Shown here: positions 2,087 to 24,136 of the stretch, piece after piece
How positions within the stretch are numbered: the stretch's first letter is position 1
Layout of the letters: each line of letters starts with the position of its first letter
NCBI GenBank assembly: GCA_003990745.1
Contig: RBNI01001109.1
Location: 1 to 24,316, forward strand
Direction of reading: 5' to 3'
Origin: Jimgerdemannia flammicorona
Lineage: Eukaryota > Mucoromycota > Endogonomycetes > Endogonales > Endogonaceae
Length of the DNA stretch: 24,316 nucleotides
Translations under genes and position numbers: made by a program
The notes under the pieces: generated by a model
Told to the model about the DNA's origin: nothing
Databases searched by the model: none
Seen by the model: only the letters and a program-made list of their open reading frames with translations

Positions 2087-2470
2087 CTTAATTGGTGCTA
2101 CCAAAATCTTTTTGGTCTTATTCAGTTTCAGAGAGTTCTTGAACTTTTGTAATCTTGAGTTGACTAGCTTTTTCTAGGATCATTTGTGCAACTCAGTCTC
2201 TTTCCTTGACTGTATAATATTGATCCTTCTGGTTGATAAGCAGAACTTGAACTTATCCTCAAAAGTCTGGATCAATAATACCAGCATCTACATCTAAATG
2301 ATATTTGACACTGAGTTCTGATTATTGTACAATTCTGATATAATGTCCTTCAGGATATTGGACTGCAATTCTAGTAGGCACTAGAGTTTGGTCCTTGGCT
2401 AAAATGGTGACTTGTTTGACAGAGTGTAGGTCAAGACCAATGGCTCCTTCTATTTGATATTGAGGGGCCT
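2087..2470 (-). pseudogene. dUTPase domain in the element C polyprotein
   Basis: One minus-strand frame, with stops but without a frameshift, carries all five motifs of trimeric dUTPases in order. They are GAIGLDL (2427-2447, motif 1), an RIVQ-SEL block matching the usual RSGL motif 2, AGIIDPDF-G (motif 3), VAQMILE (motif 4) and DFGST (motif 5, close to 2100). dUTPase hydrolyses dUTP to dUMP and keeps uracil out of newly made DNA. The domain directly follows the zinc-knuckle region and directly precedes the protease. Several stops fall at places where Arg, Gln or Glu codons are expected. The five motifs in order make the identification firm despite the decay. Confidence 0.85.
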
Positions 2471-5332: not shown

Positions 5333-5867
5333 TAGTGCTCTGAATAAGATGATCTGGATCAGATTCAAATCTTATTCAGATCAACTCAAATGAGATTCAA
5401 ATCAATTTAAATCAACTATTATTTTGATTTTCAAATTAAACAATTAAATATTTATATCAATAACTTGATGAATAATTATTTAATTTTGATGATCTTAGTG
5501 TTATTTAAAAGTCCTTAATAAGGCCTTTCTAATGATATCAAGAATATTGAAATTAGATCATACATTGCTGAGTTATCAAGGAAAACATCTGACTTGCCAA
5601 TTTTGGAAATTTCTTCAAAAGAATGTTTTCCTTAATAGCTTGGGGATGCATAATCCAATTTTAATATTCTTGATATCATTAGAAAGGCCTTATTAAGGGC
5701 TTTTAAATGACACCAAGATCATTAAAATTAGATGATTATTCATTAAGTTATTGATATAAACATTTAATTGTCTAATTTGGAAATCAAAACAAAGGTTGAT
5801 TTGAATCAATCTGGATGGGATTCAATCCAAATCCAATCTAGATTAAATTGACTCATTCAAAGCACTA
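5333..5867. mobile_element. Foldback MITE with TA target duplication
   Basis: This is a 531-bp inverted-repeat element occupying 5335-5865, flanked by TA on both sides (5333-5334 and 5866-5867). The termini are GTGCTCTGAAT and ATTCAAAGCAC, complementary except for one transition. Each arm is about 260 bp, and the arms pair over nearly their full length, for example AATAAGGCCTTTCTAATGAT at 5519-5538 with its complement near 5670. There is no ORF. TA duplication and short conserved tips point to mobilisation by a Tc1/mariner-pogo type transposase. It sits within the copia pol relic. Its inner arm sequence is homologous to the foldback core at 14162-15287. Confidence 0.8.
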
Positions 5868-6225: not shown

Positions 6226-6430
6226 TGTTACGTAGTGGTCGCTGAGTCCTTCAAATATATCAGATTCTCTTCAAGATATATCTCTTAGACTAACTCAAGT
6301 TTGTTATAAGTAAGTTCTTATTGGAGTACCTTCTCAAGATCTCATAGTCCTTAAACTTCTTATCTTTAACTGTCTTGTTATCTCTTAGATCACTTGCAAG
6401 AGATTGTATGTAAGTGAAACCAGAACTGAC

Positions 6431-6463
6431 TTTATTTCAGAGGAAATAAGAGAGGTATTTATA
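6431..6463 (-). promoter_or_regulatory. TATA box and AATAAA of the A 3' LTR
   Basis: On the minus strand TATAAATA (6456-6463) is followed 20 bases later by AATAAA (6431-6436). The same pair with the same spacing occurs in all four LTRs, which fits the U3/R boundary of an LTR promoter. The start site is inferred, not seen. Confidence 0.65.
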
Positions 6464-6570
6464 CAAAATATAATTCAATGGTTGCTAAGATATAAAGCTA
6501 AATATAAATTCTAATAACTAAAACTACTAAGTTCCAGGGTTGGTACTGATGGTTGTACAGGTTCAGGATA

Positions 6571-6696
6571 CTGGTATAATTCAGTGTCACATCAGAATAC
6601 CAGTGCTGGTATTATTTAGTGTTATATCAAAATACCAATACTGGAACAATTCTGTATCATCTCAGAATACTAGTGCTGGCATAATTCAGTGTAACA
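6571..6696 (-). repeat. 35-bp tandem repeat in U3, about 3.6 copies
   Basis: Three full 35-bp units beginning CTGG, plus a partial fourth, lie between the U3 ORF stop and the TATA box. The units differ mostly by transitions. Their position just upstream of the promoter is typical of enhancer repeats in LTRs. The element B LTRs have fewer units. Confidence 0.8.
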
Positions 6697-6702
6697 AGGA
6701 AC

Positions 6703-7651
6703 TTAGAGCAGAATGTTCAAGACCATGGGGGCTTCATCCTTGTCATCAGAGGTCAGGATATCTTCAAAAGAGATGAGGTCTGCAAACATTTTGTTAAGAT
6801 TGCATAGATCACATAGGATGATGTCATCACTGATAATGTCATCACATTCAGTGGCGGCAGGAACAAGGAGATCTGGAGCTCTCCAGTCTATGAGGTTCTC
6901 TTCCACAAAATAGGGGACAAATATGGGGTCTTGGGGAGGTCTAACCTAGATGCTTGGGCCTTGGAATACTGAGATCAATCCTTGTAAGAATTGGTCTGGG
7001 TTGTCCTGAAGGATGGGATACCAGAAGTCTTCTACTTCATCACTATTGAGGGTGATAGTGGACTGGGCTTCTGTAGTCACCCTGGCTTCTAGTGCATTGA
7101 TATAGCAGGATGACAGGTCTCTGAAATCTGAGACTCTAACATACTCCAAGTTGGGAATCAACCATAGTATATACCTGAAGATCTGATGGATCTTCTTAGC
7201 TATCCTCATTTCGTGTATATCCATGGGAGTGGCATCTTGTAGCTCTTGAGTACTGGCCTGGGGGAACTCCTGGTAGAGGAGGTTTCCTATTTCATACTTC
7301 TGTCACATTTGGAGGCATTTAGTAGCAATGGTGATCTTTTTCCATTTCATAGTGGTAGAGAATATAGTGATAAGGGTCACTAGTACCCAAATTGACACTA
7401 GGAGTCCTTCTTGAGCAGGTCCTTATGGCTCTTCTGATGTCTTGGAACATCCTTTCTTCAACTGAGGTGCCTTGGTGGTTCCTTGATCTTGAGGTTTGGT
7501 GGGCAGCAGGCATTTTGTTTATAGTGAGTCTTTGAGCTATTTTGGGATTGGTGGGTCTTATTGGTTACTGCTACTGCAGTTTCTTGATCCTTCTTTTATA
7601 TTCCTCAAGATGCTTATACTGTGGTCACAATGACTCATAGTTGGTCATCAT
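6703..7651 (-). pseudogene. LTR-encoded ORF, element A 3' LTR copy
   Basis: This is a homologue of the U3 ORF described at 12652-13602. Here the C-terminal two thirds is nearly open: MDIHEMRIAKKIHQI... from 7224 to a stop at 6946, then the frame continues to NILL-stop at 6703. A net 2-base change near 7335 (the reading turns to EKDHHCY) puts the N-terminal third, from the ATG at 7651, out of frame. The N-terminus reads YKHLEEYKRRIKKLQ, a likely coiled coil. The C-terminus is acidic (DDIISDDII, FEDILTSDDKDEA). No family is recognised. Confidence 0.6.
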
Positions 7652-7733
7652 TGCTCATCTTGTATGCCATATGATCTTCTTGTGCTCCGATCTGGTGGCT
7701 TGCAAGGAAAGACTGTCTCCTGTACTGATGTCA

Positions 7734-8549
7734 TCATTCTGGGGTCACCATTACATCTTTCTTCTGAATAAGGATCTTCTTGAGCATCCTTATTCATTGG
7801 TCCAGTCCTGAAAAATTTGCTGATCCCATAACCTCTGGCAAGGGGTTGAAAAGTGGTATTTATGGGCTAGCATCTTCCCTTTGTATTTTAGTATGATGGT
7901 GAAGGGTCGCTCCCTTCATATAGAGCAAGGGCCTGATTCTGATCTTAACCAATCAGTTGACAGTTTGAACTCCTCTGACTTCGAAAGTCTCATAGATGAG
8001 TACATAGTTGTCAGTGCCATATCCCTTAGAGAATGGTCTAGACAGATAGTCTGCCAGTCATAGGACATACTGTTATGATTCACAGACTAGAACCTTGCAG
8101 GTAGTCATCACATTTTGCTTCTCTTATATAGGTTCATAGTACTTCTTGAGTCTGTTCCTGTGTACTATAGTAGGCAGTATAGTCCCTGAGATTTTTCTAA
8201 GCCAAAAGGTAGTTCTCTTAATATCTTGCACATAGAAGGGTTCTTTCCATTTGGGCTCCAGTTTTCACGACCATGAGGCTTCTACCATATTTTGATACAG
8301 TAGAACCTTTTCTCCAATTCGGATGGGTTCTAGGGTCTTGTGATTCTTTTTCACATTCTTTCTTATCAGCGCCTGTGACTTGGTGATGTAATCTTCAGCT
8401 TTCTTTCTAATTTGGTGTAGTCTCTGGATTTCTGCATCAACCCATCTCCAAGTTAGATCTAGATTTGTGGCTGAGGTTCCATCAGAATCTTCTTCTCTGA
8501 AGAGCAGCTCCCTTGGGATGAAGTGTGTGCTCTGTGACCATATGTCTCA
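7734..8549 (-). pseudogene. Integrase C-terminal remnant of element A
   Basis: This is the part of pol left of the deletion junction. It begins with the segment after the catalytic glutamate, continues through the GPF-like module (PFYVQDI, then RKISGTILPTIVHRNRLKKY, about 8150-8270) and ends about 115 residues later at a stop at 7734-7736, 22 bases inside the 3' LTR. The catalytic core and HHCC domain are gone. The extra tail after the GPF module is shared with B. I see no chromodomain in it. Confidence 0.75.
7756..7765 (-). other. Polypurine tract of element A
   Basis: AGAAGAAAGA on the minus strand directly abuts the 3' LTR start (TGTAATGG). It corresponds to AGGAGGAAGA at 22601-22610 in element B and fits the plus-strand primer site expected at this position. 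Confidence 0.7.
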
Positions 8550-8553
8550 TAGA
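8549..8553. other. Deletion junction in element A (1283 bp missing)
   Basis: RT thumb sequence (NIAVPIY) passes directly into integrase sequence. The equivalent positions in element B are 20543-20545 and 21826-21828, which share CTA. Only one CTA remains in A, at 8550-8552. The distance between them in B is 1283 bp, identical to the difference in internal length between the elements (5702 versus 4419). The join is out of frame with integrase. Confidence 0.93.
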
Positions 8554-8559
8554 TAGGTA

Positions 8560-9345
8560 CTGCAATATTGAAGTATCCTTTGATGAACCTTCTGTAGTAG
8601 CTGGCCAGTCTAAGGAAGGCATGGACTTCTGTAGTTGTTCTGGGTCTCAGGTAGGCTGCAATAGCCTCAATCTTTATGGAGTCTGTATGGATTCTGGTCT
8701 GGTTGATGAGGTGTCCTAGATAGGCGATTTCTTGAGCTGTAAACTTGCATTTCTTGGGCTTAATGTAGAGGCCATGCTCCTTGAGCTTCCTGAGGGCTAG
8801 CTGTATGTGATTGACATGTTCCCATACAGTGTTACTGAAGATGATCATATCATCAACATAGACAAAGAGCCATTTTCCAATCTCATTACTGAAGACTCTA
8901 TTCATCATTTACTGGAAACTTGCTGGAGCATTGCACATTCCAAATGGCATTCACAGGTAGATATAGGTGGCATCAGGTGTGATGAAAGCTGATTTCTCAC
9001 TGGTATCTTGAGTGAGACCAATTTGATGAAAGCCTAAGAACAGATCCAAGATAGTATAGTATTTGGCTTCGCTTCTAAGGGTGGTAAGGATTTCTTGAAT
9101 ATTTGGTAAGAGCTGCCTATCCTTCTTGGTAATTGCATTGAGCTTCCTATAGTCAATGCAGAGTCTTGGTGCAAACTCTCCAGGCTTACTTCCTTTCTTC
9201 AGGATAAGGACAATGAGTGAGGCTCAGGGGCTGATAACTTGCTTGATGATTCTGGCTTCTTCCATTTCCTTGAGTTCTGCTTGCAGCCACTCTCTGTAGG
9301 CAGGTGGTATAGATCTGGCTTTCTGATAGATAGGCTTGGTATCAC
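8560..9345 (-). pseudogene. Reverse transcriptase domain of element A
   Basis: The minus-strand reading gives EFAPRLCIDYRKLNAITKKD, then YYTILDLFLGFHQIGLTQD, MPFGMCNAPASFQ, and an intact catalytic YVDDMIIFS at about 8834-8860, then the thumb (KKCKFTAQEIAYLGHLINQ). The segment from 8908 to the deletion junction is open. Upstream, stops sit in the YIYL-stop-MPFG and SFQ-stop-MMNRVF positions, the same codons as in B. Gypsy RT copies element RNA into DNA. RNase H, which should follow, is deleted. Confidence 0.9.
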
Positions 9346-9549
9346 CAGTGTCAACTTCATAGTAGTATACTTGGATTCTTGATTGTAGATATCCCTAAAG
9401 TCTGTAGTAAGTACTCCTTTGTTCTGGTGCAGGATCTTGAGAAGTTATTCCTCCAGGGGAAAGTTTTCTCCAATAGTATATGTGTGCTTGTTCTGGTCCT
9501 TGTCTTTCTTGTGCTCAGGTTCAGTAATTTTGGTGGCAGCATAGGCTCC

Positions 9550-9970
9550 TTTTCTAGTAGATCCAAAGCCTTATTCTCCTCTCTTGGTCTTGATGAGTTT
9601 GATGGCTTCTATGATCTTTGGCTTCTTGACTTTGTGGATCAGCATCTGGTCAATCCTGTCATGCTTCTTGACTTCAAATGGGATGGTGGAATTGTGATTC
9701 CTAACTATGAGGAAGATCTCGCCAGTATAATCAGGGTCAATTACTCCTCCTTCAACTGAGATTTCACTTTTGGCCAGACTGCTTCTGGTCTTGATAATTT
9801 CAGCATAGTTCTCTGGCAGCTTGACTCCAATTCCAGTATCAAGTAGGGTGGTGGTCTGTGGTTCAAGGGTATCATCTTGAATGCTGGTAAGGTCTATTCC
9901 TATAGCTCCTTCAGTCTTGTATTCTGGGATCTTGGCTTTGAGGTGAAACTTCTTAATCTTGAGGGTGATG
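9550..9970 (-). pseudogene. dUTPase domain of element A polyprotein
   Basis: All five dUTPase motifs are present on the minus strand: GAIGIDL (9889-9909), KTRSSLAK, GVIDPDYTGEI (about 9715-9747), DRIDQMLI and RGE-stop-GFGST (9559-9582). Motif 2 keeps the R-S-S-L core and motif 3 its aspartates and tyrosine. Motif 4 has Asp where Ala is usual, and motif 5 carries a stop. An acidic, lysine-rich linker precedes it (ADSDDEEEQE). It lies between protease and RT in the same frame register. Confidence 0.9.
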
Positions 9971-10319
9971 TCTGATTCTTGTTCCTCCTCATCATCACTG
10001 TCAGCTTGAAGCTCTGGGAGCTGGTCATCTTCTTCAGCTTTCCTTTTTGCTTCAGCAGCTTCTTGCTCATGTTTCTGTTAGCAGATTTTCCTGACTTCAC
10101 TAATATAGGACTAGCAGTCATTCAGGTATTCAGAGCAGTACATCCTAGTACCATGGGGGCATCTTCCTTGAGAGGCATAGCCATCAATAATCTTGTTATA
10201 CTACTGCTCATCTGTGAGCTTGGGTATCTTGTTCTTATTGTTCACCAAGTGTATGAAGACTTCTGTGTCCTCTTTATCTCCTTCCTCTATATCTGGTAGG
10301 ACTCCTTTGTGGACACTGA

Positions 10320-10700
10320 TAGAGACTCATACCTTTCTTTCTCTATAGTTGATCTGCATCTTCTGGGCATTGAGGTCAATGATGGCCTTGGCCTTATGAA
10401 GCCATTGGTTGCCAATGAGGATGTCATAGTTGGTGGCGCTTATAACAATCACATCTACTAGAATGATAGCTCCTTCTATCTTGATGGGGACTTCTCAGAT
10501 TTTGTCAAGGGTGGTAGCTTGTGTACCATCTGCTGTGACATAGACCATCTTGGTGGACTCTTCAATGTCCCAACCTAGGTGGTCAATTGCCTTCTTACTC
10601 ATGAGGCATCCTCCAGCACCAGTATCAATGATGGCATCAAAGATACAGTCTTCAATCTGGTATGGAGTATAGGCTGATATCTTGTGCTGGTCTTCAGATT
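10320..10700 (-). pseudogene. Aspartic protease domain of element A
   Basis: The minus strand reads DCIFDAIIDTGAGGCLMSKK, a good retropepsin active site with DTGAGG at 10609-10626. This is followed by VYVTADGTQ and the second conserved hydrophobic block NYDILIGNQWLHKAKAIIDL (I-L-G/I-G-x-x-W-L type). A TGA interrupts it between these blocks. It would mature the Gag-Pol polyprotein. The frame is continuous with gag except for the shared TAG at 10726. Confidence 0.85.
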
Positions 10701-10725
10701 CTTCACCTGAGTTCTTGGATTCTTC

Positions 10726-12048
10726 CTATGCATTGTGAGCTTCTACAATCTTGTACTCTTGATTCTTGGCAGTAGTTGCAAGTCCTACTCTCAACTGCTG
10801 TCTGAAGGCAGGGACTTCAGCTAGTTGTCCAAAAGTAGCATTGACCTTCTGTTCCTTGAGGTCCTTGTAGATATCATACTGGTGGATCTTGGTCTTGTAC
10901 AGCTTCTGTTCCTTCTTGCTTTTACTTTCTCCTGAGACTGGAGTAATATCTTCAATGATTTGGTGGACAGCTTCATCTAACTCTATGTCTTGATCAATCT
11001 CCTCAGGTTGAGTCTTACTTTGAATAGTGATAGCTGGGGTCTTTTTTGGTCTTCCAACTGGCTTGCTGTTGCTCTTCTTGTCATAGGGCTTGGACCAGGT
11101 TCTGGTACCTTCAGTAGCAGAGTAGAATTCAAGCTCCTTATAGTATTCTTCATCATCAGTGTCACCAATCTCCTCAATGACTACTGTATTGGTTTGTTCT
11201 CTGGTTCTGCTAGCATTGCTTGGTTGGGCTTTGCATCTTGTTTTGGTCATGCAATTCTTTGCATAGTGGCCTTCTTCTCCACATCTGAAGCATATGATAT
11301 TGCGTTCTTCTATAGCAGCTGCAAATCTCTGCACTGGTCTTCTGTTGGTACTTTGGACTTCTCTAACAACATCACCAAGGTGTACAGTCATCTCAGCAAA
11401 CTGCTTGGCGAGTTCCTCCACTGGGCCAGCTTTGGCTGTCTTGGGGGTAGGTGGGGTTAGTTGTCTGTTTACAACTATGGCGGATATGATACTAGTTGAC
11501 TTTGATGGCTCCATCTTGATGCCAGTTATTTTCTCTATTGAGTGTTCAGCAGGGTGTCTGACAGTCCAATATCTCTGTACAAAGATCACTTTCTGATCAA
11601 GGGTCAGTGCAGCTGGGGTAGACCAGATTGCTAGGGCAATTTCAGGGTGAACTCCTTTGAGGAAGATTAAATCCACTATTTGTTCCTTGAGGTGGTCATC
11701 ATAGCCAGCCAAGACAATCTGGTAACAGATTCAGGTATAAAATGAGTTGGGATCTTTACTAAGTCCCTGGCAAATAGTATTGAGTTGATCCTTGAGAGCT
11801 TGCTTGATCTCTTCAGTATAATATATTGTTCTGAGGAAGGCCTTCATGTTGGTAAGTTTGGCTACACCAGCATCAGCAATAGTGGCTGCATTGAACTTGT
11901 CTCTGGTAGGTCTATTGAGGCTGACTGGTAGAAGGGCCAATTGAGCATCCACACCAAGGGCTCATATGGCAGCAAATTGTTCAAAGTTTTCAATAAAGGT
12001 CAGGATTGACTCTTCAGTAGTATATCTATAGAATGTGGGGGGGTACAT
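10726..12048 (-). pseudogene. Gag of element A
   Basis: Starting from a conserved Met before YPPTFYRYTTEES (12048), the frame runs through a capsid-like helical region (RDKFNAATIADAGVAKLTN, YYTEEIKQALKDQLNTICQG) to a fully open stretch from 11712 to 10729. That stretch includes a canonical zinc knuckle CFRCGEEGHYAKNC at 11251-11292 (CX2CX4HX4C) and a charged tail. Two TGA codons (AAI-stop-ALG and FYT-stop-IC) interrupt the first third. The frame ends with a TAG at 10726-10728, shared with element B. No in-frame ATG lies further 5', although the frame remains readable for about 45 codons upstream, so the start is uncertain. Confidence 0.85.
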
Positions 12049-12137
12049 TTCTATCTTGTCTTGAATTCTTGCAGGGGTAACTCTTGTAGTCAGGGTAGTT
12101 GTTGTGGAGGTTGTTTGTTTTTCAGCTTGAAAGTGAG

Positions 12138-12157
12138 GGATTCATCTTGAATCACCA
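12138..12157 (-). other. Candidate primer-binding site of element A
   Basis: On the minus strand TGGTGATTCAAGA starts 17 bases after the 5' LTR end and is conserved in element B (16926). It starts with the TGG complementary to a tRNA CCA end. The tRNA it would imply does not fold obviously with a normal T-arm, and a 17-base gap is unusual, so the call is weak. Confidence 0.25.
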
Positions 12158-12379
12158 GCCAATGGGCACTAAGTTGTCACGTAGTGGTCGCTGAGTCCTT
12201 CAAATATACCAGATTCTCTTCAAGTTATATCTCTTAGACTAACTCAAGTTTGTTATAAGCAAGTTCTTATTGGAGTGCCTTCCCAAGGTCTTATAGTCCT
12301 CAAACTTCTTATCTTTAACTGTCTTGTTATCTCTTAGATCACTTGCAAGGAATTGTGTATAAGTGAAACCAGAACTGAC

Positions 12380-12412
12380 TTTATTTCAGAGAAAATAAGA
12401 GGGGTATTTATA
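12380..12412 (-). promoter_or_regulatory. TATA box and AATAAA of the A 5' LTR
   Basis: TATAAATA (12405-12412) and AATAAA (12380-12385) on the minus strand are placed as in the other three LTRs. This copy would drive the genomic RNA of A. The U3 ORF lies upstream of it and so would appear in that RNA only through the 3' LTR. Confidence 0.65.
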
Positions 12413-12519
12413 CAAAATATAATTCAATAGTTGTTAAGATATAAAGCTAAATATAAATTCCAATAACTAAAACTACTAAGTTCCAGGATCGGTACTGATG
12501 GTTATACAGGTTCAGGATG

Positions 12520-12645
12520 CTGATATAATTCAGTATCACATCAGAATACTGGTGCTGGTATTATTTAGTATTACATCAAAATACTAGTGCTAGAACAATT
12601 CTATGTCACCTCAGAATGCTGGTGCTGGCATAATCCAGTATAACA
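12520..12645 (-). repeat. 35-bp tandem repeat in U3 of the A 5' LTR
   Basis: This has the same 3.6-copy arrangement as in the 3' LTR of A, placed between the U3 ORF stop and the TATA box. The units carry additional transitions. Confidence 0.8.
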
Positions 12646-12651
12646 AGGAAC

Positions 12652-13602
12652 TTAGAGCAGAATGTTCAAGACCATGGAGGCTTCATCCTTATCACCAGAG
12701 GTCAGGATATCTTCAAAGGAGATAAGGTCTGTAAATATTTTGTCAAGATCATGTAGGTTGTACAGGATGATGTCATCACTAATGATGTCATCATATTCAG
12801 TGGCAGTAGGAACAAGGAGATCTGGAGCTCTCCAGTCTATGAGATTCTCTTCCACAAAATAGGGGACAAATGTGGGGTCTTGGGGAGGTCTAACCTGGAT
12901 GCTTGGACCTTGGAATACTGAGATCAATCTTTGCAGGAATTAGTCTGGGTTGTTCTGAAGGATGGGATGTCAGAAGTCTTCTACTTCATCACTATTGAGG
13001 GTGATAGTAGACTGGGCTTCTATAGCCACCCTGGCTTCTAGTGTATTGATATAGTGGAATGACAGGTCTCTGAAATCTGAGACTCTAATATACTCTAAGT
13101 TGGAGATCGACCATGGTGCATGTCTGAAGATCTGATAGATCTTCTTAGCTGTCCTCATTTCATATATATCCATGGGAGTGACATCTTGTAGCTCTTGAGT
13201 ACTAGCCTGAGGGAACTCCTAGCAGAGGAGGTTTCCTATTTCATACTTCTATTATATTTGGAGGCATTCAGTAGCAATAGTGATCCTGGTTTCCATTTCA
13301 TGGTGGTAGAGGATATAGTGATAAGAGTCACCAGTACCCAGGTTGACACTAGGTGTCCTTCTTGAGTGGGTCCTCATGGATCTTCTGATGTCTTGGAACA
13401 TCCTTTCTTCAACCGAGGTGCCTTGGTAGTTCCTTGATCTTGAGGTTTGGCGGGCAGCAGACATTTCATTTGTAGTGAGTCTTTGAGCTATTTTGAGATT
13501 GGTGGGTCTTATTGGTTGCTGCTACTGTGGTTTCTTAATCCTTCTTTTATATTCCTCAAGATGCTTATACTGTAGTCATAATGACTCACAGTTGGTCATC
13601 AT
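12652..13602 (-). pseudogene. LTR-encoded ORF (U3), about 316 codons, unknown family
   Basis: One frame runs from an ATG-ATG at 13602 to a TAA at 12652. It has several stops but no frameshift, and three long open pieces lie in the same frame (13464-13252, 13173-12970, 12927-12652). Residues about 10-30 are a charged heptad-like helix (YKHLEEYKRRIKK). A basic Ser/Arg stretch (SAARQTSRSRN, ERMFQDIRRSMRTHSRRTP) follows. The middle includes YIRVSDFRDLS and STITLNSDEVEDF. The end is acidic (FVEENLIDWRAPDLL, DDIISDDII, FEDILTSGDKDEA). Most stops are at Gln or Trp codons of the sister copies. It is sense to gag-pol and entirely within U3. I do not recognise a homologue; MMTV Sag is only a positional analogy. 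Confidence 0.65.
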
Positions 13603-13706
13603 TGCTCATCTTGTATGCCATATGATCTTCTTGTGCTCCAATCTGGTAGCTTGTAAGGAAAGACTGTCTCCTGTGCTGATGTCATCATTCTGGAGTCACT
13701 GTTACA

Positions 13707-14161: not shown

Positions 14162-15287
14162 TTTTTTTTTTTTTTTTTTTTTGATACATACATTTTGCAT
14201 GCTATTAATATCCAAATTTTCGCCATTATTGTTTCAGACATTCTTTACAACTCTATGGTATTTTCATGCAATATTAATTTAGTTTCATTATTCTGATTTC
14301 CAAATTAGACCACTTAACGTTTTCCTCAATAACTTAGTGAGTTTTCAGTCGATTTTGATGATCCTGGTGCCATTGAAAAGTCATTCTCAAGAGCCTTTCA
14401 AAGATACCAAGGATGTTAAAATCGGATGAAAATTCACCGAGTTATCAAGGAAAACATCCGACTCACCCAGTCTGAAACGAACATTTTCCTCAAAATCTCA
14501 GTGAATTTTCATCCGTTTTTAACGTTTATGATATCATTGTGAAGCTCTCTATAATAGTTTTCCAATGACACCAAGATCATCAAAATCGGATGAAAACTCA
14601 CTGAGTTATCGAGGAAAATGTTTGATGGTCTAATTGGTAAGATAATAGTGAGTATCAATAACATAAAAAGAACTCTCAAAAAGGCCAGTATATGTATGTA
14701 AGCAAAAAAAACCGCTTTTGCTGCCTTGTCGCATCAAGGCACAATACAAATTTGCAACATAAAGATTGAACCATGATGGCCGTAAATGGATATAAGCAAG
14801 GCGCAACCTTGAAACTGAACCATGTGACCAGAACTCTAAAATTTGGTGGCCTCGATAACTCAGTGAGTTTTCATCCGATTTTGATGATCTTGGTGTCATT
14901 GGAAAGCTATTATAGAGAGCTTCACAATGATATTATAAACGTTAAAATCGGATGAAAATTCACTAAGATTTTGAGGAAAATGTTCGTTTCAGACTCAGTG
15001 AGTCAGACGTTTTCCTTGATAACTCATCCAATTTTAACATCTTTGATATCTTTGAAAAGCTCTTGAGAATGACTTTCCAATGGCACCAGGATCATCAAAA
15101 TCAACTGAAAACTCACTAAGTTATTGAGGAAAATGTTAAGTGGTCTAATTTGGAAATCAGAATAATGAAACTAAATTGATATTGCACTAAAACACCATAG
15201 AGTTGTAAAGAATGTCTGAAACAATAATGGCGAAAATTTGGATATTAATAGCATGCAAAATGTATGCATCAAAAAAAAAAAAAAAAA
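14162..15287. mobile_element. Foldback element core with nested palindromic units
   Basis: The core is bounded by a 21-base T run (14162-14182) and its mirror, a 17-base A run (15271-15287). Each arm holds alternating forward and reverse copies of a unit of about 70 bp whose consensus includes GATAACTCAGTGAGTTTTCA and GATTTTGATGATCTTGGTGT; I can place about four per arm. The outer arm (ATTTCCAAATTAGAC...) is homologous to the MITE at 5335-5865. No ORF of note is present. It was probably moved in trans, but the true tips of the transposon cannot be separated from the duplicated flank. Confidence 0.65.
14615..14849. other. Unpaired spacer of the palindrome
   Basis: This unique 235-bp stretch between the two arms keeps CpGs (for example AACCGC, GTCGCATC, AAGGCGCAAC), unlike the surrounding elements. 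It has no coding signal; the short overlapping ORFs read on both strands look incidental. It contains a short diverged direct repeat around CATGGTTCA on the minus strand. Its origin is unknown. Confidence 0.5.
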
Positions 15288-15476
15288 TCTGTATACTGAG
15301 AAGGATCAAAATAGTACTAATGGATAATTTAACTTAAAATAGTTATATTAATGTCCATAATTATCTAAATATTGTAATGGTGACCCCAGAATGATGACAT
15401 CAGCACAGAAGACAGCTTTTCCTTACAAGCCACCAGATCGGAGGATAAGAAGATTATATGGCATATGAGATGAGCA

Positions 15477-16421
15477 ATGATGACCAACTGTGAGTCATTG
15501 TGACCACAGTTTAGATATCTTGAGAAATATAAAAGAAGGATTAAGGAACTGCAGTAGCAGCAACCAACAAGATCCACTAATTCCAAAATAGCTCAAAGAC
15601 TTACCACAAATGAAATATCTGCTGCTTGCCAAACCTCAAGGTCAAGGAACCACCAAGGCATCTCAGTTGAAGAAAGGATATTCTAAGACATCAAAAGAGT
15701 CATGAGGATCTGCTCAGAAAAGACTCCTAGTGTCAACCTGGGTACTGATAACTCTTATCATTATATCCTCTACTGCTGTGAAATGGAAACAAGGATCACC
15801 ATTGCTACCAAATGCCTCCAAATATAGCAGGAGTATGAAATAGAAAACCTCCTCTGCTAGGAGTTCCTACAGGCCAGCACTCAAAAGCTAAAAGATGTCA
15901 CTCTCATGGATATATATGAAACAAGGATGGCTAAGAAGATCCATCAGATCTTCAGGCATGCACCATAGTCAATCCCCAACTTAGAGTATATTAGAGTCTC
16001 AGATTTCAGAGACCTGTCATTCTGCCATATCAATACACTAGAAACCAGGATAGCTACAGAAGCCTAGTCCACTATCACCCTCAATAGTGATGAAGTAGAA
16101 GACTTCTGATATCCTATCCTTCAGGACAACCCAGACCAATTCCTGCAAGGATTGATCTCAGTATTCCAAGGCCCAAGCATCCAGGTTAGATCTCTCTAAG
16201 ATCTCATGTTTGTCTTCTATTTTGTGGAAGAGAACCTCATAGACTGGAGAGCCCCAGACCTCCTTCCTACTACTGCTGAATGTGATGACATTATCAGTGA
16301 TAATATCATCCTGCATGATATTGAAACATACAAAACATGCAATGATGATGAATTTGTGGATCTTATCTCCTTCAGTGATAATGAGAATGAAGCCCCTATG
16401 GTCTTGAATATTCTGCTCTAA
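15477..16421 (+). pseudogene. LTR-encoded ORF, element B 5' LTR copy
   Basis: 945 bases lie in a single frame from ATG-ATG to TAA with no net frameshift, aligned throughout with the A copy. Internal stops replace Gln (GAAGCCTAGTCC against GAAGCCCAGTCC in the 3' LTR) and Trp codons. The last 71 codons, from 16206, are open: FVEENLIDWRAPDLL, then an acidic stretch ending APMVLNILL. Here the acidic tail has a different insert (HDIETYKTCNDDEF) from that in element A, so two tail variants exist. Function unknown. Confidence 0.6.
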
Positions 16422-16431
16422 AATTCTTTAG

Positions 16432-16528
16432 TTATACTAAGTTATATCAGTACTGGCATTTTAATATAATACTGAGTTATGCCAGTACTGGCATTTTGAT
16501 GTAATACCAAAATTATACTAGTATTCTG
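16432..16528 (+). repeat. 35-bp U3 repeat in the B 5' LTR, about 2.7 copies
   Basis: AGTACTGGCATTTT begins two successive units 35 bp apart, flanked by partial units. It occupies the same place as the 3.6-copy array of element A, so unit number differs between copies of the family. Confidence 0.75.
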
Positions 16529-16650
16529 AACCTGTATAACCATCAGTACTGACCCTGGAACTTAGCAGTTTTTTCTGTCTTAGCATTTTATTTTAGTTAT
16601 TGGAATTTATATTTAGCTTTATAGCTTAGCAACCATTGAATTATATTTTG

Positions 16651-16683
16651 TATAAATACTCCTCTTATTTTTTCTGAAATAAA
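16651..16683 (+). promoter_or_regulatory. TATA box and AATAAA of the B 5' LTR
   Basis: TATAAATA at 16651-16658 and AATAAA at 16678-16683 mark the U3/R region. The promoter lies downstream of the U3 ORF, so genomic RNA would carry that ORF only at its 3' end. Confidence 0.7.
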
Positions 16684-16925
16684 GTCAGTCCATTCAGTCC
16701 ATTTAGTCTACTCAGTGTAATATACACACTTCTTTGCAAGCAATCTAAGAGACAACAAGACAGTTTAAAGATAAGAAGTTTGAGGACTATAAGACCTTGG
16801 AAAGGTACTCCAATAAGAACTTGCTTATAATAAACTTGAGTTAGTCTAAGAGATATACCTTGAAGAGAATCTAGCATATTTGAAGGACTCAGTAACTACT
16901 ATGTGACAACTTAGTGCCCATTGAC

Positions 16926-16943
16926 TGGTGATTCAAGACAAAT
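16926..16943 (+). other. Candidate primer-binding site of element B
   Basis: TGGTGATTCAAGA lies 17 bases after the LTR end and is conserved in element A. No tRNA with a matching 3' end is obvious, and the offset from the LTR is larger than usual. Confidence 0.25.
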
Positions 16944-17028
16944 CCCTTACTTTCAAGCTAAAAAATGAACAACCCCCACAATAACTACTCTGACTACAAG
17001 AGTTACCCCTGTAAGAATTCAAGACAAG

Positions 17029-18357
17029 ATGGAAATGTATCCCCCCACATTCTATAGATATACTACTGAAGAGTCAATCCTGATCTTCATTGAAGACTTT
17101 GAACAATTCACTGCCATATAAGCCCTTAGTATAGATGCACAATTGGCTCTTCTACCAGTCAGCCTCAGAGAACCTGTCAGAGATAAGTTCAATATAGCTA
17201 CTATTGCTGATAATAGTGCAGCCAAACTTGCCAACATAAAGGCCTTTCTCAGAACAATATACTATACTGAAGAGATCAAGTAAGCTCTCAAAGATCAACT
17301 CAACACTATCTGCTAAGGACTTAGTGAAGATCTCAACTCATTCTATACCTGAATCTGCCACCAGATTGTCTTAGCTGGCTATGATGATGCCCTCAAGGAA
17401 CAAATAGCAGATTCAACCTTCCTTAAAGAAGTTTACTCTGAAATTGCCCTAGCAATCTGGTCTACCCTAGCTGCACTGACTCTTGATTAGAAAGTGGTCT
17501 TTGCACAGAGATATTGGACTACTAGATATCCTACTAAATACTTAATAGAGAAAATAACTAGCATCAAGATGGAGCTATCAAAATCAACTAGTATCATACC
17601 TGCCACAGTTGTAAACAGATAACCATTCCCACTTACCCCCAAGGCAGCCAAAGCTGACCCAGTGGAGGAACTTGCCAAGCAGTTCGCCGAGATGACTGTA
17701 CACCTTGGTAATATTGTTAGAGAAGTCCAAAGTGCCAACAGGAGACCAGTATAGAGATTTGCAGCTGCTACAAAAGAATGCAATATCACATACTTCAGAT
17801 GTAGAGAATAAGGCCACTATGAAAAGAATTGCATAACCAAAACAAAATGCAAAGCCCAACCAAGCAATGCTAGCAGAACTAGAGAACAAACTAATGCAGT
17901 AGTCATTGAGGAGATTGGCAATACTGATGATGAAGAATACTATAAGAAGCTTGAATTCTACCCTACTACTGAAGGTACCAGAACCTGGTCCAAGCCCTAT
18001 GACAAGAAGAGCAACAGTAAGCCAGTTGGAAGACCAAAGAAGACCCCAGCTATCACTATTCAAAGCAAGACTCAACTTGAGGAGATTGATCAAGATATAG
18101 AGTTAGATAAAGCTGCCTGCCAAATCATTGAAGGCACTACCCCAGTCTTAAGAGAAAGTGAAAGCAAGAAGGAACAGAAGCTGCACAAGATCAAGATCTA
18201 CCAGTATGATATCTATAAGGACCTCAAGGAACAGAAGGTCAATGCTACTTTTGGACAACTAGCTGAAGTCCCTGCCTTCAGATAGCAGTTGAGAGTAGGA
18301 CTTGCAACTACTGCTAAGAATCAAGAGTACAAGATTATAGAAGCTCACAATGCATAG
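17029..18357 (+). pseudogene. Gag of element B
   Basis: The frame opens at MEMYPPTFYRYTTEES and continues through the same helical capsid-like region as in A. The zinc knuckle at 17791-17832 is damaged: the first Cys is Tyr and a Glu codon is TAA (YFRCRE-stop-GHYEKNC). The charged tail (DDEEYYKKLEF, KKSNSKPVGRPKKTP) is well preserved and ends at a TAG at 18355-18357, identical in position to the TAG of A. Several Gln-to-stop changes (CAG to TAG, CAA to TAA) break the gene. Gag, protease and the rest of pol share one frame register, suggesting a single polyprotein. Confidence 0.85.
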
Positions 18358-18399
18358 AAAGAATCTGAAAACTTAGGTAAAGAATCTGAAGACCAGTAC

Positions 18400-18770
18400 A
18401 AGACATCAGCCTATACCTCATGTCAGATCAAAGACTGTATCTTTGATGCCATCATTGATACTAGTGCTGGAGGATGTCTTATGAGCAAGAAGACAATTGA
18501 CTGCCTAAGCTGGGACATTGAAGAGTCTACTAAGATGGTCTATGTTACAGCAGATGGTATATGAGCTACCCTTCTTGGCAAATCTGAGAAGTCCCTATCA
18601 AGATAGGAGGAGCTATCATCCCAGTAGATATGATTATTACAAGTGCCACCAACTATGATATCCTCATTGGCAACCAATGACTTTACAAGGCCAAGGCCAT
18701 TATTGACCTCAATGCTTAGAAGATGCAGATCAACTATAGAGGAAGAAAGGTACATACAAGTCTCTATAAA
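18400..18770 (+). pseudogene. Aspartic protease domain of element B
   Basis: DCIFDAIIDTSAGGCLMSKK places the active site DTSAGG at 18457-18474, with Ser in place of the Gly seen in A. A 1-base deletion near 18585 (AAATCTG against AAAATCTG in A) shifts the frame. The second block, NYDILIGNQ-stop-LYKAKAIID, then appears in another frame at about 18651-18715. The domain is therefore recognisable but broken. Confidence 0.8.
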
Positions 18771-18845
18771 TGTCTATAAAGGAGTCCTACCAGATATGAA
18801 GGAAGGAGATGAAGAGGACATAGAGGTCTTCATACATTTGGTAAA

Positions 18846-18876
18846 CAAGAACAAGAACAAGAACAAGACACCTACA
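18846..18876 (+). repeat. AACAAG microsatellite in pol of element B
   Basis: Successive AACAAG hexamers lie in the linker between protease and dUTPase, where element A has only AACAATAAGAACAAG. The length change contributes to shifting the reading frame between protease and dUTPase in B. Confidence 0.7.
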
Positions 18877-19119
18877 TAAGCTCACAGATGAGCAGTGGTA
18901 CAACAAGATTATTGATGGCTATGCCCCTCAAGAAAGATGCCCCATGGTACTAGGATGTACTGCTCTGAACACTTGAATGACTAATAGTCCTGTATCAGTG
19001 AAGTCAGGAAAATCTGCCAACAGAAATATAAGCAAGAAGCTGCCAAAGCAAAAAGAAAAGCTGAAGAAGATGACCAGCCTCCAGAGCTTCAAGCTGATAG
19101 TGATGATGAGGAGAAACAA

Positions 19120-19560
19120 GAACCAGATATCACCCTCAAGGTCAAGAAGTTCTACCCTGAAGCTAAGATCCCAGAATACAAGACTGAAGGAGCCATAGGA
19201 ATGGACCTTGTCAGCATTTAAGATGCTACCCTTGAACCACAGACCACCACTCTACTTGGTACTGGAATTGGAGTCAAGCTGCTAGAGAACTATGCTGGAA
19301 TTATCAAGACCAGGAGCAGTCTGGCCAAAAGTGAAATCTCAGTTAAAGGAGGAGTAATTGACCCTGATTATACTGGCAAGATCTTCCTCATAGTTAGGAA
19401 TCACAATCCCACCACCCCATTCAAAGTCAAGAAGTATGACAGGATTGGCCAGATGCTGATCCATGAAATTAAGAAACCCAAGATCACTGAAGCCATCAAA
19501 CTCATCAAGACCAAGAGAGGAGAACAAGGCTTTGGATCTACTGAAAGAGGAGCCTATGCT
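19120..19560 (+). pseudogene. dUTPase domain of element B polyprotein
   Basis: This is a full trimeric-type dUTPase in one frame: motif 1 GAIGMDL (19189-19209), motif 2 KTRSSLA (about 19306-19326), motif 3 GVIDPDYTGK (19351-19380), motif 4 DRIGQML (about 19438-19458) and motif 5 RGEQGFGST (19516-19542). The spacing is normal for a domain of about 140 residues. Only one stop lies inside it, shortly after motif 1 (19219-19221). It is preceded by an acidic linker (QADSDDEEKQEPD) and followed by about 60 residues before RT. It would hydrolyse dUTP during cDNA synthesis. It is fused to pol, not a separate gene. Confidence 0.93.
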
Positions 19561-19734
19561 ATCACCAAGATTACCAAACTTGAATACAAGAAAGATAAGA
19601 ACCAGAACAAGCACACATATACTATTAGAGAAAACTTTCTCCTGGAAGAACAACTTCTCAAGATCCTGCACCAGAATGAAGGAGTACTTGCTACAAACTT
19701 TAGGGATATCCATAATTAAGAACTCAAGTACTAT

Positions 19735-20590
19735 TATGAAGTTGACACTGGTGATACCAAGCCCATCTACCAGAAAGTCAGACCCATACTACCTGCCTAC
19801 AGAGAATGGCTGTGAGCAGAACTCAAGGAAATAGAAGAAGCTAGAATCATTAAGCAAGCTATCAGTCTCTGGGCTTCACTCATTATCCTTGTCCTAAAGA
19901 AAGAAAGGAAGCCTGGAGAGTTTGCACCAAGACTCTGCATTGACTACAGGAAGCTCAATGCCATCATCAAGAATGATAGGCAGCCCTTGCTAAATATTCA
20001 AGAAATCCTTACCACTCTTAGAAGTGAAGCCAAATACTACACCACCTTGGATCTGTTTTCAGGCTTCCATCAGATTGGTCTCACTCAAGATGCCAGTGAG
20101 AAATCAGCCTTCATCACATCTGATGCCACCTATATCTACCTGTGAATGCCATTCGGAATGTACAATACCCTAGCAAGTTTCCAGTGAATAATGAATAGAG
20201 TTTTCAACAATGAGATTAGAAAATAGCTCTTCATCTATATCGATGATGTGATCATCTTCAGCAAAACTGTATGAGAATATATCAATTATATACAGCTAGC
20301 CCTCAAGAAGCTCAAGGAGCATGGCCTTTATATCAAGCCCAAGAAATGTAAGTTTGTGGTTCAAGAAATTGCCTACCTAGGACACCTCATCAACCAGATC
20401 AGAATCCATACAGACCCTATAAAGATTGAGGCTGTTGTAGCCTACCTAAGACCCAGAATGACCACAGAAGTCCATGCCTTCTTAGACTGGTCAACTACTA
20501 CAGAAGATTTATCAAAAGATACTCTAATATTGCAGCACCTATCTACAAGCTAATGAAGAAGGAAACCAAATTTGAATAGATCAAGGAATG
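19735..20590 (+). pseudogene. Reverse transcriptase domain of element B
   Basis: Ty3/gypsy RT blocks occur in order: VDTGDTKPIYQK, EFAPRLCIDYRKLNAIIKND, YYTTLDLFSGFHQIGLTQD, MPFGM, then the catalytic YIDDVIIFS at 20236-20262 and KKCKFVVQEIAYLGHLINQ. Stops are present at the codon before MPFGM and at the residue after SFQ, as in element A. A missing base near 20486, relative to A, moves the frame before RNase H. Confidence 0.92.
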
Positions 20591-21045
20591 CCAAGAAACC
20601 TTCAATGAACTCAAGACCAGGTTGACTCAAGCACCTATTCTCAGAAGACCAGATTGGAATCTAGAATTCATCCTGCAGATAGATGCAAGTGCCATAGGAC
20701 TTAGAGCAGTCCTAGCTTAGAAGAAAGATGGACATGAATATGTCATCTCCTATATAAGCTGAGGTACCCACAGAGCAGAACAGAACTACGAGTCATGCAA
20801 GCTTGAATGCTTAGCAGTAGTTTGGACAGTAGACAAGTTCCACTACTACCTAGCTGGGAAATACTTCACCATTCAAACAGACCATTCTACTCTTGTCTGG
20901 CTATTCCACACTCTGAACTCCAAAGGAATATATGCCAGTTAGATCTACAGGCTACAAGAGTATGACTGTACTGTCAAGCACCACTCAGGAAGAACCAACA
21001 CCAATACTGATGTACTCTCAAGGATACTCCGAAATACCCTCATCA
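20591..21045 (+). pseudogene. RNase H domain of element B
   Basis: The reading gives FILQIDASAIGLRAVLA (catalytic Asp at 20682-20684), HRAEQNYESCKLECLAVVWT, KFHYYLAGKYFTIQTDHSTL and KHHSGRTNTNTDVLSR. These are the standard gypsy RNase H blocks with the D-E-D type residues in place. Stops occur near 20717, 20759 and 20939. The whole domain is absent from element A. Confidence 0.9.
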
Positions 21046-22632
21046 AGATTACTCAATATGAATAAGGAGTTATACTATGGATTAATCAACTATCTTGGGC
21101 AGCAGAAGATGCCCAATCACCTTGAACCCTGGACAATCACCATCATTAACTGGACTTGGAAACAGTTTGAACTAGATAACATTATACTCAGAAAAGGAGA
21201 AAAGCTAGTAATACCCGAATACAAGAAGTATCAAGTAATGAAGGAAGTACATGAGCAAGGACACCTAGGAGGAACCAACACATATGACAAGGTAAGAAGA
21301 ACCATGTGGTGGCCCAAGATGAAAGAAGACCTGTACCAATTTGTCAAAGAGTGTAATAAGTGCCAAAAACAGAAATAAGATCAGTAAGACCAGACACCTG
21401 GATCATCAAGAATTGAGCCTATCTCCTTCCATCACATCACAATGGATATCATTGGGCCACTACCAGTAACACTATCAGGAAACTGCTATATTATAGTTAT
21501 TATAGACCTCTTTACTAAATAGATAGAAGCAGGAGCATTACAAGAAGCCAATGCCCTCTCTATAGCTGACTTCCTGTACCGAGAAATCATTTGCTGCTAT
21601 AAGACACCAAAGCAAATCACAACAGACTGTGGCACAGAATTTGTCAATGGATTCTACAAGATAATGTATCAGAAATACAAGATCCAGCATATCAAGACCA
21701 CCACATATCACCCTTAAGAAAATGGACAGACAGAGAGAACCAATAAGACCCTCAAGAACATCCTGGCAAAGATCTCAGAGACATATGAGAATTGGAATAA
21801 TTATCTCCCAACTGCCCTCTCTGTCCTATGAGACATATGGTCACAGAACACACACTTTACCCCAAGAGAATTACTCTTCAGAGAAGAAGATTCTAATGAA
21901 ACCTCAGCCATAAATCTAGACCTAACTTGAAGACAGGTTGATGCAGAAATCCAGAGACTATATCAAATCAGGAAGAAGGCTGAAGATTACATAATCAAGT
22001 CATAAGTGCTGATAATGAAGAATGCAGAAAAGAATCACAAGACCCTAAAACCCATCCAAATTGGAGAAAAGGTCCTACTGTATCAAAATATAGTAGAAGT
22101 CTCATGGTCATGAAAACTGGAGCCCAAATGGGAAGGACCCTTCTATATGTAAGATATCAAGAAAACTACCTTCTGGCTTAGAAAAATCTCAGGGACCATA
22201 CTGCCTACCATAGTACATAGAAACAGACTCAAGAAGTATCATGAACCTATATAAGAGAAGCAAAACATGATGACCACCCATGAGGTTCTAGTCTGCAAAT
22301 CATAACAGTATGTCCTATGACTAGCAGGCTATCCTATTCTCTAAGGGATATGGCACTAGCAACTACTCATCTGTGAGACTTTCAAAGCCAGAGGAGTTCA
22401 AACCATCAACTGATTGGTCAAGATCAGAATCAGGCCCTTGCTCTATATGAAGAGAGCAATCCTTCACCATTATGCCAAAATACAAAGAGAAGATGCCAGC
22501 CCATAAATACTACTTTTTGACTCCTTGCCAGAGGTTATGGGATCAGCAAATTTTTCAGGACTGGACCAATGAATAAGGATGCTCAAGAAGATTCTTATTT
22601 AGGAGGAAGATGTAATAGTGACCCCAAAATGA
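21046..22632 (+). pseudogene. Integrase of element B
   Basis: The HHCC zinc domain is intact (H at 21250 and 21262, C at 21352 and 21361: HEQGH ... CNKC). The catalytic triad is D 21445-21447, D 21625-21627 and E 21733-21735, with 35 residues between the last two (D,D35E). A GPF module follows (WEGPFYM, then RKISGTILPTIVHRNRLKKY, about 22125-22240). A further tail of about 115 residues without a chromodomain ends at TGA 22630-22632, 22 bases inside the 3' LTR. Several stops (for example after FTK and YHP) disable it. Integrase joins the cDNA to the chromosome. Confidence 0.92.
22601..22610 (+). other. Polypurine tract of element B
   Basis: AGGAGGAAGA directly abuts the 3' LTR. It overlaps the end of the pol reading frame, which continues into the LTR. 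Confidence 0.75.
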
Positions 22633-22714
22633 TGACATCAGCACAGGAGACAGCCTTTCCTTACAAGCCACCAGATCAGAATACAAGAAGATCATATGGC
22701 ATATGAAATGAGCA

Positions 22715-23684
22715 ATAATGACCAACTATGAGTCATTGTAACCACAGTTTAGATATCTTGAGGAATATAAAAGAAGGATTAAGGAACTACAGTAGCAGCA
22801 ACCAACAAGATCCACTAATCCCAAAATAGCTCAAAGACTTACCACAAATAAAATACCTGCTGCTTACTAAACCTCAAGATCAAGGAACTACCAAGGTATC
22901 TCAGTCAAAGAAAGGATGTTCTAAGACATCAGAAGAGCTATGAGGACCTGCTCAGGAAGGACTCCTAGTGTCAACCTGGGTACTGGTGACTCTTATCATT
23001 ATATCCTCTATTACCATGAAATAGAAACAAGGATCACTATTGCTACTGAATGCCTCCAAATATGGCAGGAGTATGAAATAAGAAATCTCCTCTGCCAGGA
23101 GTTCCCACAGGCCAGCACTCAAGAGCTACAAGATACCACTCCTATGGATATATACAAAAACAAAGACAGCTAAGAAGATCCATCAGATCTTCAGGCATAT
23201 ACCATGGTTAATCTCCAACTTGGAGTATATTAGAGTCTTAGATTTCAGAGACCTGTCATCCTGCCATATTAATGCACTAGAAACCAGAGTAGCTACAGAA
23301 GCCCAGTCCACTATCACTCTCAATAGTGATGAAGTAGAAGACTTCTGGCATCCTATCCTTCAAGACAACCCAGACCAATTTCTACAAGGATTGATCTCAG
23401 TATTTCAAGACCCAAGCATCCAGGTTAGACCTCTCCAAGACTCTACATTTGTCCCCTATTTTGTGGAAGAGAACCTCATAGACTGGAGAGCCCCAGACCT
23501 CCTTCTCACCACTGCTGAACATAATGATGTCATCAGCAATGATGTCATCCCGCATGATATTGAAGCATGTGAAACATACAATGATGACAAATTTGCAGAT
23601 CTCATCTTCTTCAGTGACAATGAGGATGAAGTCCCTATGGTCTTGAACATTCTGCTTGGTTACACTGAGTTATGCCAGCACTAG
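22715..23684 (+). pseudogene. LTR-encoded ORF, element B 3' LTR copy
   Basis: The position of the first Met reads ATA, with ATG next at 22718. The N-terminal half (RTCSGRTPSVNLGTGDSYHY from about 22940) is open for 77 codons. A 1-base gain near 23155 (MDIYKNKDS-stop) shifts the frame, and the C-terminal half is then open from 23220 to 23684. The normal stop has been lost in a small deletion, so the ORF reads on into the repeat (GYTELCQH). This copy has the longest open C-terminal part of the four (154 codons). Confidence 0.6.
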
Positions 23685-23755
23685 CATTTTGATATAATAC
23701 TGAGTTATGCCAGCACTGGCATTTTGATGTAATACTGAAATTATACTAGCATCCT
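23661..23755 (+). repeat. 35-bp U3 repeat in the B 3' LTR
   Basis: Two successive GCCAGCACTRGCATTTTGAT units lie 35 bp apart with partial flanking units, matching the 5' LTR of B in copy number. Confidence 0.7.
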
Positions 23756-23878
23756 GAACCTGTATAACTATCAGTACCGACCCTGGAACTTAGCAGTTTT
23801 TCCTGTTCTGGTATTTTATTTTAATTATTAGAATTTATATTTAGCTTTATATCTTAGCAACCATTGAATTATATTTTG

Positions 23879-23911
23879 TATAAATACTTCTCTTATTTCC
23901 TCTGAAATAAA
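23879..23911 (+). promoter_or_regulatory. TATA box and AATAAA of the B 3' LTR
   Basis: TATAAATA (23879-23886) and AATAAA (23906-23911) are placed as in the other LTRs. In this copy the AATAAA would serve to end the genomic RNA. Confidence 0.65.
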
Positions 23912-24136
23912 GTCAGTCCATTCAGTCTATTTAGTCTACTCAGTACAATATACACACTTCCTTACAAACAATCTAAGAGATAATAAGACAGTTTAAAGAT
24001 AAGAAGTTTGAGGACTATAAGACCTTGGGAAGGCACTCCAATAAGAACTTACTTATAACAAACTTGAGTTAGTCTAAGAGATATATCTTGAAGAGAATCT
24101 GGTGTATTTGAAGGACTCAGCAACTACTATGTGACA

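Follow-up and report, generated by a model that had tools for sequence, protein, structure and literature searches.

Known systems and the locus

Mouse mammary tumour virus (MMTV) carries in the U3 region of its long terminal repeat (LTR) an open reading frame (ORF) for Sag and Naf, and a promoter within U3, P2, is used for Sag besides the main promoter P1 (PMC9412291; what is said of any paper cited by PMC number holds for the part of it that was available). In foamy viruses one accessory ORF reaches into the 3' LTR, and the Tas protein activates its own promoter and that of U3 (PMC3185757). LTRs are usually seen as gene-free regulatory DNA, and solo LTRs as dead relics. Inside the LTRs of a retrotransposon family of the fungus Jimgerdemannia flammicorona we found a protein gene that has been under selection. 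The window that was analysed is a whole stretch of 24,316 nucleotides (contig RBNI01001109.1, positions 1 to 24,316) from an assembly of 134.8 Mb and 7754 contigs (GCA_003990745.1). Two oppositely oriented Ty3/gypsy elements lie in it, A on the minus and B on the plus strand, and, as the initial annotation of the window had claimed, a homologous sense ORF lies within the U3 of all four of their LTRs. We consider it almost certain that this ORF, the LTR gene, codes for a protein (the LTR protein) that was under selection while the family spread.

As in MMTV, the ORF lies in U3 upstream of the genomic promoter, a role that would here belong to the second of two TATA boxes (TATA2), and the conserved first box (TATA1) is a candidate counterpart of P2. 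The likeness to P2 covers its presence in U3; MMTV has further sag promoters in env. MMTV also resembles element B in having a dUTPase (PMC9412291). The comparison with sag made in the initial annotation held for the layout, and further than stated there, since the U3 ORF of MMTV is also served by a U3 promoter; it did not hold for the product, as Sag is a type II transmembrane protein whereas the LTR protein has no such stretch and no Pfam match. With foamy virus Tas (Bel-1) the LTR gene shares the arrangement of an accessory gene with a promoter of its own, presumed in our case (PMC3185757). In foamy viruses the internal promoter sits within env and only part of the gene extends into the LTR, whereas here gene and presumed promoter lie wholly inside the LTR, so that a full element has two copies of the gene and a solo LTR has one. 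No sequence similarity was found between the LTR protein and proteins of the Tas type.

Third proteins are also known from retrotransposons. Cer1 of Caenorhabditis elegans is a Ty3/gypsy element that likewise encodes a third protein, CERV, which has no obvious homologues outside its genus, but the CERV gene lies between pol and the 3' LTR and is expressed from a spliced mRNA, whereas the gene described here is in U3 (PMC10309623). The fungal Ty3/gypsy element PosPlaTy3-5 of Postia placenta has, like element B, a dUTPase between protease and reverse transcriptase (RT), and its figure legend names an additional ORF of unknown function (PMC2864245). Plant LTR elements contain additional ORFs (aORFs), Retrosat2 ORF0 among them, whose function is unclear and which many families keep in most or all of their copies (PMC7264820, PMC3485330); these lie mostly between pol and the 3' LTR (PMC7264820) or upstream of gag-pol (PMC3485330). 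A literature search covering few subscription papers found no retrotransposon paper that names a protein gene inside an LTR in its title or abstract opening, and no LTR retrotransposon described as both gene and target of its product; in the parts available, PMC12037069, PMC10974842 and PMC4016481 match phrases such as "LTR ORF" but mean something else. The layout is already known from MMTV; that a retrotransposon has it too, for a protein of a different kind, points to more than one origin.

Extent and state of the LTR gene

Compared with the database protein P0005, the ORF begins at LTR position 243 in all four LTRs and runs to a stop near 1050-1055, which gives about 270 codons in the window copies. 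The length of about 315 codons given earlier had counted sequence ahead of the ATG. The four copies are as follows.

12652..13464, minus strand: LTR gene, A 5' copy; 270 codons plus stop, ATG start, 5 internal stops, no frameshift
6703..7513, minus strand: LTR gene, A 3' copy; ATG start, a frameshift and stops
15615..16421, plus strand: LTR gene, B 5' copy; 268 codons plus stop, start ATA, 7 internal stops, no frameshift
22853..23684, plus strand: LTR gene, B 3' copy; start ATA, a frameshift and stops, last 154 codons open, own stop lost

All four are broken. Two of them, A 5' and B 5', had been said to keep one frame over their whole length, which is right as to frameshifts and wrong as to stops. 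The frame of the B 3' copy extends to 23684 because its stop codon was lost.

Evidence that the frame is coding

A loose first look at the genome gave 4072 candidate places for the LTR gene, of which the 150 best-scoring matches (P0007 as query) were scored; the matched frame was free of stops in 81 of these 150. Eighty loci, representing 79 distinct places (L012 and L037 coincide), were fetched, 50 by protein score and 30 by DNA similarity to the window copy, the latter including two that are the window's own. A whole ORF from the usual start, 267-282 amino acids long, was present in 18 of the 50 protein-chosen loci and in none of the 30 DNA-chosen ones, and a further 12 loci, all protein-chosen, were open over at least 230 codons. 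The intact-frame counts lean to good copies, all 30 open loci being among the 50 protein-chosen (49 distinct places).

The length of insertions and deletions (indels), counted as distinct indels relative to one reference copy, separates the ORF from its surroundings. In the 30 DNA-chosen loci 14 of 21 indels within the ORF were multiples of three, versus 4 of 44 in the flanks (p=3e-6); in the protein-chosen loci (49 of the 50, L037 omitted) the counts were 30 of 40 and 4 of 47. This indel-phase test could be used to screen other long LTRs.

Substitutions were judged against the way in which these LTRs decay. Transitions account for 134 of the 137 differences in the LTR pair of element A and 159 of the 162 in that of B, and over six LTR pairs C to T changes ranked CpG > CpA > CpC > CpT. 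The decay is like that of repeat-induced point mutation (RIP) or methylation, and for this reason LTR divergence is no clock here. The ratio of nonsynonymous to synonymous changes (N/S) was normalised by a null in which each change was placed at a random site of the same trinucleotide. In the coding frame N/S over the null was 0.51 among the 18 complete copies, 0.71 between DNA-chosen elements and 0.79 between window elements A and B, and it was 0.89 between the LTRs of single elements (six pairs); the other frames gave 1.03-1.71 between elements and 1.00 and 1.35 within them. Plain dN/dS was 0.24 in the coding frame versus 0.93 and 1.00 in the other frames among complete copies, 0.43 versus 0.70 and 0.74 between six elements, and 0.50 versus 0.62 and 0.73 within elements. 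As the frame is constrained between elements and near neutral within them, selection acted during the spread of the family and largely ceased after insertion, although the within-element values of plain dN/dS make the signal after insertion weak rather than nil. Constraint was strongest at codons 161-215 (0.29 in complete copies, 0.63 in DNA-chosen copies). Used as a yardstick, gag gave 0.90 and 0.89 in the same 12 copies that gave 0.55 for the LTR gene, and we read the gag differences in those copies as mostly post-insertion decay. The 12 copies had been picked by the LTR protein, which lowered the value of 0.55, and the test on DNA-chosen copies was made for that reason.

A search of 5.8 billion proteins returned database relatives of the LTR protein, four by an unaltered open piece and seven by profile, all encoded on short ENA or JGI contigs (778-1625 bases) that are probably metagenomic. 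P0005, of 271 amino acids, aligns end to end with the complete genomic copies; P0006 is 93% identical to one copy in this genome and P0007 71% to another, and P0009 shares 56% identity with P0005 over 51% of P0005.

The same LTR gene is carried by a more diverged, older family in this genome, of which one copy, L081, was fetched. Its protein is 42-52% identical to the LTR protein, and its differences at codon positions 1, 2 and 3 amount to 0.42, 0.27 and 0.57, the copy itself being decayed. Its positions 131-888, which start a little ahead of TATA1 and reach into the ORF, can be aligned to a young LTR, and outside them only one 25-base match was found. The order of signals in this one copy is TATA1, ORF, TATA2, AATAAA, with TATAAAA 69 nucleotides ahead of the start, TATAAAT after the ORF and AATAAA 25 nucleotides further. 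Other contigs of the older family in this genome (C2849, C602, C913 and C65) have 4 to 10 stops each.

Several observations weigh against a coding role. Not one of the 30 DNA-chosen loci was open over 230 codons. Transversions alone fail to separate the frames (N:S 1155:307 in the coding frame, 916:480 and 1138:68 in the others), and the last 53 codons (216-268) are without constraint, at 1.03 in complete and 0.87 in DNA-chosen copies. Nonetheless, the frame is more than chance, as indel phase, substitution pattern, database relatives and the older family agree. The refuting outcome named in the initial annotation, that the ORF is chance sequence, is rejected.

Promoters, repeats and signals

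The signals that surround the gene are given below for the A 5' LTR, followed by the repeats of the other LTRs.

13545..13551, minus strand: TATA1 (TATAAAA), 87 bp ahead of the start of the ORF; the three remaining LTRs have it at LTR position 156
12518..12645, minus strand: 35-bp tandem repeats, 3.7 copies, between ORF stop and TATA2
12406..12412, minus strand: TATA2 (TATAAAT), downstream of the ORF, presumed genomic-RNA promoter
12380..12385, minus strand: AATAAA poly(A) signal, 27 bp after TATA2
6571-6696, minus strand: 35-bp tandem repeats, A 3' LTR
16434-16523, plus strand: 35-bp tandem repeats, B 5' LTR
23664-23738, plus strand: 35-bp tandem repeats, B 3' LTR

The TATA box that had been reported downstream of the ORF is present, and a second one, upstream of the ORF, had been missed. 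TATA1 lies 86-88 nucleotides ahead of the ATG in all 18 complete copies, and all 62 full LTRs have TATAAAA within their first 260 bases. Of these 62, 59 have TATA2 (TATAAATA) after the ORF, and every one has AATAAA. Upstream of TATA1, TGA[CT][AG]TCA was found within the first 25 bp in 50 of 62 LTRs and TGA[GC]TCA near LTR position 100 in 51 of 62, motifs which we take to be bZIP-like sites. The palindrome TGACGTCA occurs inside the ORF near LTR positions 900-950 in 13 of the 18 complete copies (20 sites; 0.02 per LTR expected). As a separate observation, this palindrome, which is like a cAMP response element (CRE), encodes the residues DVI of a repeated DDVI/NDVI, and coding and possible enhancer sites coincide there. 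The distance from the stop to TATA2 in 17 complete copies was 204-209 (7 copies), 244-245 (9) or 263 (1), the main clusters being one repeat unit apart.

On the strength of these motifs the LTR gene probably has a promoter of its own at TATA1, and TATA2 would be the promoter of the genomic RNA. The exact conservation of TATA1 (0.975, mean 0.515) ranks 26th among 676 non-coding 7-mers. Set against this, it ranks only 9th among the 21 7-mers made of A and T alone (mean 0.86), part of its conservation being due to a C-to-T decay that spares AT sequence; palindromes in the 35-bp repeats show only a modest enrichment (0.47 versus 0.14 per LTR, in 22 of 59); repeats of the 35-bp type before TATA2 were not found in L081; and L081 is AT-rich, so that it contains several other TATA and AATAAA matches. 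The conserved place of TATA1 86-88 nucleotides before the ATG suggests that a short mRNA is started in each LTR. The initial annotation had instead assumed expression from the 3' end of the genomic RNA. Its supposition that the LTR is the source of a third protein of the family is supported, the gene lying upstream of the presumed genomic-RNA promoter.

The LTR protein

In the 18 complete copies the LTR protein has a net charge of +4.7 in residues 1-60 and of -15.2 from residue 211. Its highest 19-residue Kyte-Doolittle mean is 0.83 and it has no N-glycosylation motif; no transmembrane-like stretch of the Sag type II or Env kind was found in these copies. P0005, P0006, P0007 and P0001 have no Pfam match at E<=10, and comparison with the element's own gag by hhalign, with few sequences on either side, gave a probability of 0.3%. 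As to gag and env, these results agree with the initial annotation, which had seen no resemblance to such products; a gag fragment is rejected on the hhalign result, and an Env or Sag protein on the hydropathy and the absent Pfam match.

Profile and PDB searches yielded no credibly related family or solved structure. Several matches were taken as chance, namely ATG5_HBR (E 0.028 in 3 of 8 members), NpmA (E 0.026 in 1 of 8), PDB chains at E 1.1 and 1.2, and the NCBIfam SpvA model (E 0.03 for P0009). Among viral contigs 290 pattern matches included no relative, and plasmid sequences gave no match.

What the LTR protein may do

We propose that each LTR would constitute a complete small gene, composed of an upstream promoter (bZIP-like sites and TATA1), an ORF of about 270 codons that could be expressed without an intron, and the poly(A) signal of the LTR. 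TATA1 would drive a short subgenomic mRNA in each LTR that ends at this signal, while a second promoter behind the gene (the 35-bp repeats and TATA2) would make the genomic RNA. The protein would act in the nucleus and raise LTR transcription, probably through the repeats before TATA2, in a loop modelled on foamy virus Tas (PMC3185757). Its basic N-terminal part, helical middle and acidic C-terminus are compatible with a nuclear regulator that raises LTR transcription, and we put this forward tentatively as the best guess. Against it, the AlphaFold2 model from 8 sequences, mostly helical to residue 184, is of low confidence (predicted local distance difference test, pLDDT, 43), and family and PDB searches of the LTR protein found no DNA-binding domain or known fold. 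It is rather doubtful, though conceivable, that the LTR is both gene and target, with intact LTRs, solo ones included, serving as sources of a transactivator that switches on other LTRs; if this were true, the family would keep a regulator in trans after most full elements were dead. Models of how such families are controlled and survive would have to change if each full element held two copies of a trans-acting gene and solo LTRs held it as well.

Other functions were considered. The protein might bind RNA as an accessory factor that exports or packages the genomic RNA, like CERV of Cer1 or Rem of MMTV. The basic N-terminal part would suit this, and Cer1 offers a Ty3/gypsy precedent for a third protein of this sort (PMC10309623), but the gene here lies in U3 behind its own TATA box, and we regard the RNA-binding role as unlikely. 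A repressor would be either a negative regulator of the LTR like MMTV Naf or a limiter of copy number in trans, as Ty1 p22 is. Naf, which shares the U3 ORF with Sag, is described as repressing transcription (PMC9412291), and a gene that persists in solo LTRs could keep the family in check; a self-limiting gene, however, is not obviously selected while an element spreads, and a p22-like factor would be a fragment of the element's own gag, to which the LTR protein has no similarity, so that repression seems distinctly unlikely. Protection of the element from the host, by countering silencing, DNA methylation or C-to-T hypermutation, is suggested by the near-pure transitions and their CpG > CpA > CpC > CpT ranking, which indicate that the host attacks repeats, and carrying the gene in every LTR would make sense for a defence that acts in trans. 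Yet none of the 30 DNA-chosen copies has escaped damage and the searches found no similarity to any family, and we hold this role to be quite improbable. A chance open frame in a low-CpG LTR, with no coding role, would fit the closed DNA-chosen copies and the uninformative transversions, but indel phase, substitution tests, database relatives and the older family together tell against it, and it retains at most a very slight probability.

Solo LTRs

Among the 80 loci, 27 were 5' LTRs (L012 and L037 being the same place), 30 were 3' LTRs and one was both; 11 had enough flank and no internal sequence on either side, and 11 were too short or partial. Seven of the 11 loci flanked by no internal sequence had perfect 4-bp duplications and, judged by these flanks, are best read as solo LTRs. 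A complete ORF was present in 3 of the 11, with 4, 3 and 1 of the 4 duplication bases matching, and a lone leftover LTR can thus hold a complete gene. It tells against this reading that in AT-rich DNA the four flanking bases may agree by coincidence. With TATA1 ahead of the ATG, any LTR, even a solo one, may be a gene complete in itself.

Elements and neighbouring sequence

The elements and their LTRs, which are about 1.53 kb long and start with TG and end with CA in both elements, are placed as follows.

6226..13706, minus strand: element A, Ty3/gypsy; both LTRs, TG...CA ends, 4-bp ATAT target duplication
12175..13706, minus strand: A 5' LTR
6226..7755, minus strand: A 3' LTR
15373..24136, plus strand: element B, Ty3/gypsy; gag, protease (weak match), dUTPase, RT, RNase H, integrase; ATAT target duplication
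15373..16908, plus strand: B 5' LTR
22611..24136, plus strand: B 3' LTR

The domains of element B follow the order protease, dUTPase, RT, RNase H, integrase. The protease and the integrase core rve scored below the Pfam cut-offs and the integrase H2C2 domain above its cut-off; the dUTPase (19222-19719, plus strand), between protease and RT, was matched at E 1.3e-21, and the A copy of gag has a CCHC knuckle. Gag, the order of protease, RT, RNase H and integrase between LTRs, and a short target duplication were all found, which identifies the family as Ty3/gypsy (Metaviridae). The 4-bp duplications of the window elements and the solo LTRs are AT-rich (for example ATAT, ATAA and TTAT), which hints at insertion into AT runs. 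Judging by the inverted pairs, some 1.28 kb of the RNase H-integrase part of B is missing from A (8552-8615 in A versus 20481-21826 in B). Outside the two elements there is a second dUTPase-like ORF at 2322-2828 (minus strand). Elsewhere, a search for host marker families gave one match to KDZ transposases, which are a basidiomycete marker, and none to HET, but neither family was matched in any of the control genomes. The window also contains large inverted repeats at 14166-14429 / 15024-15287 (95% complementary) and 5395-5588 / 5623-5816 (86%), which are possibly foldback elements.
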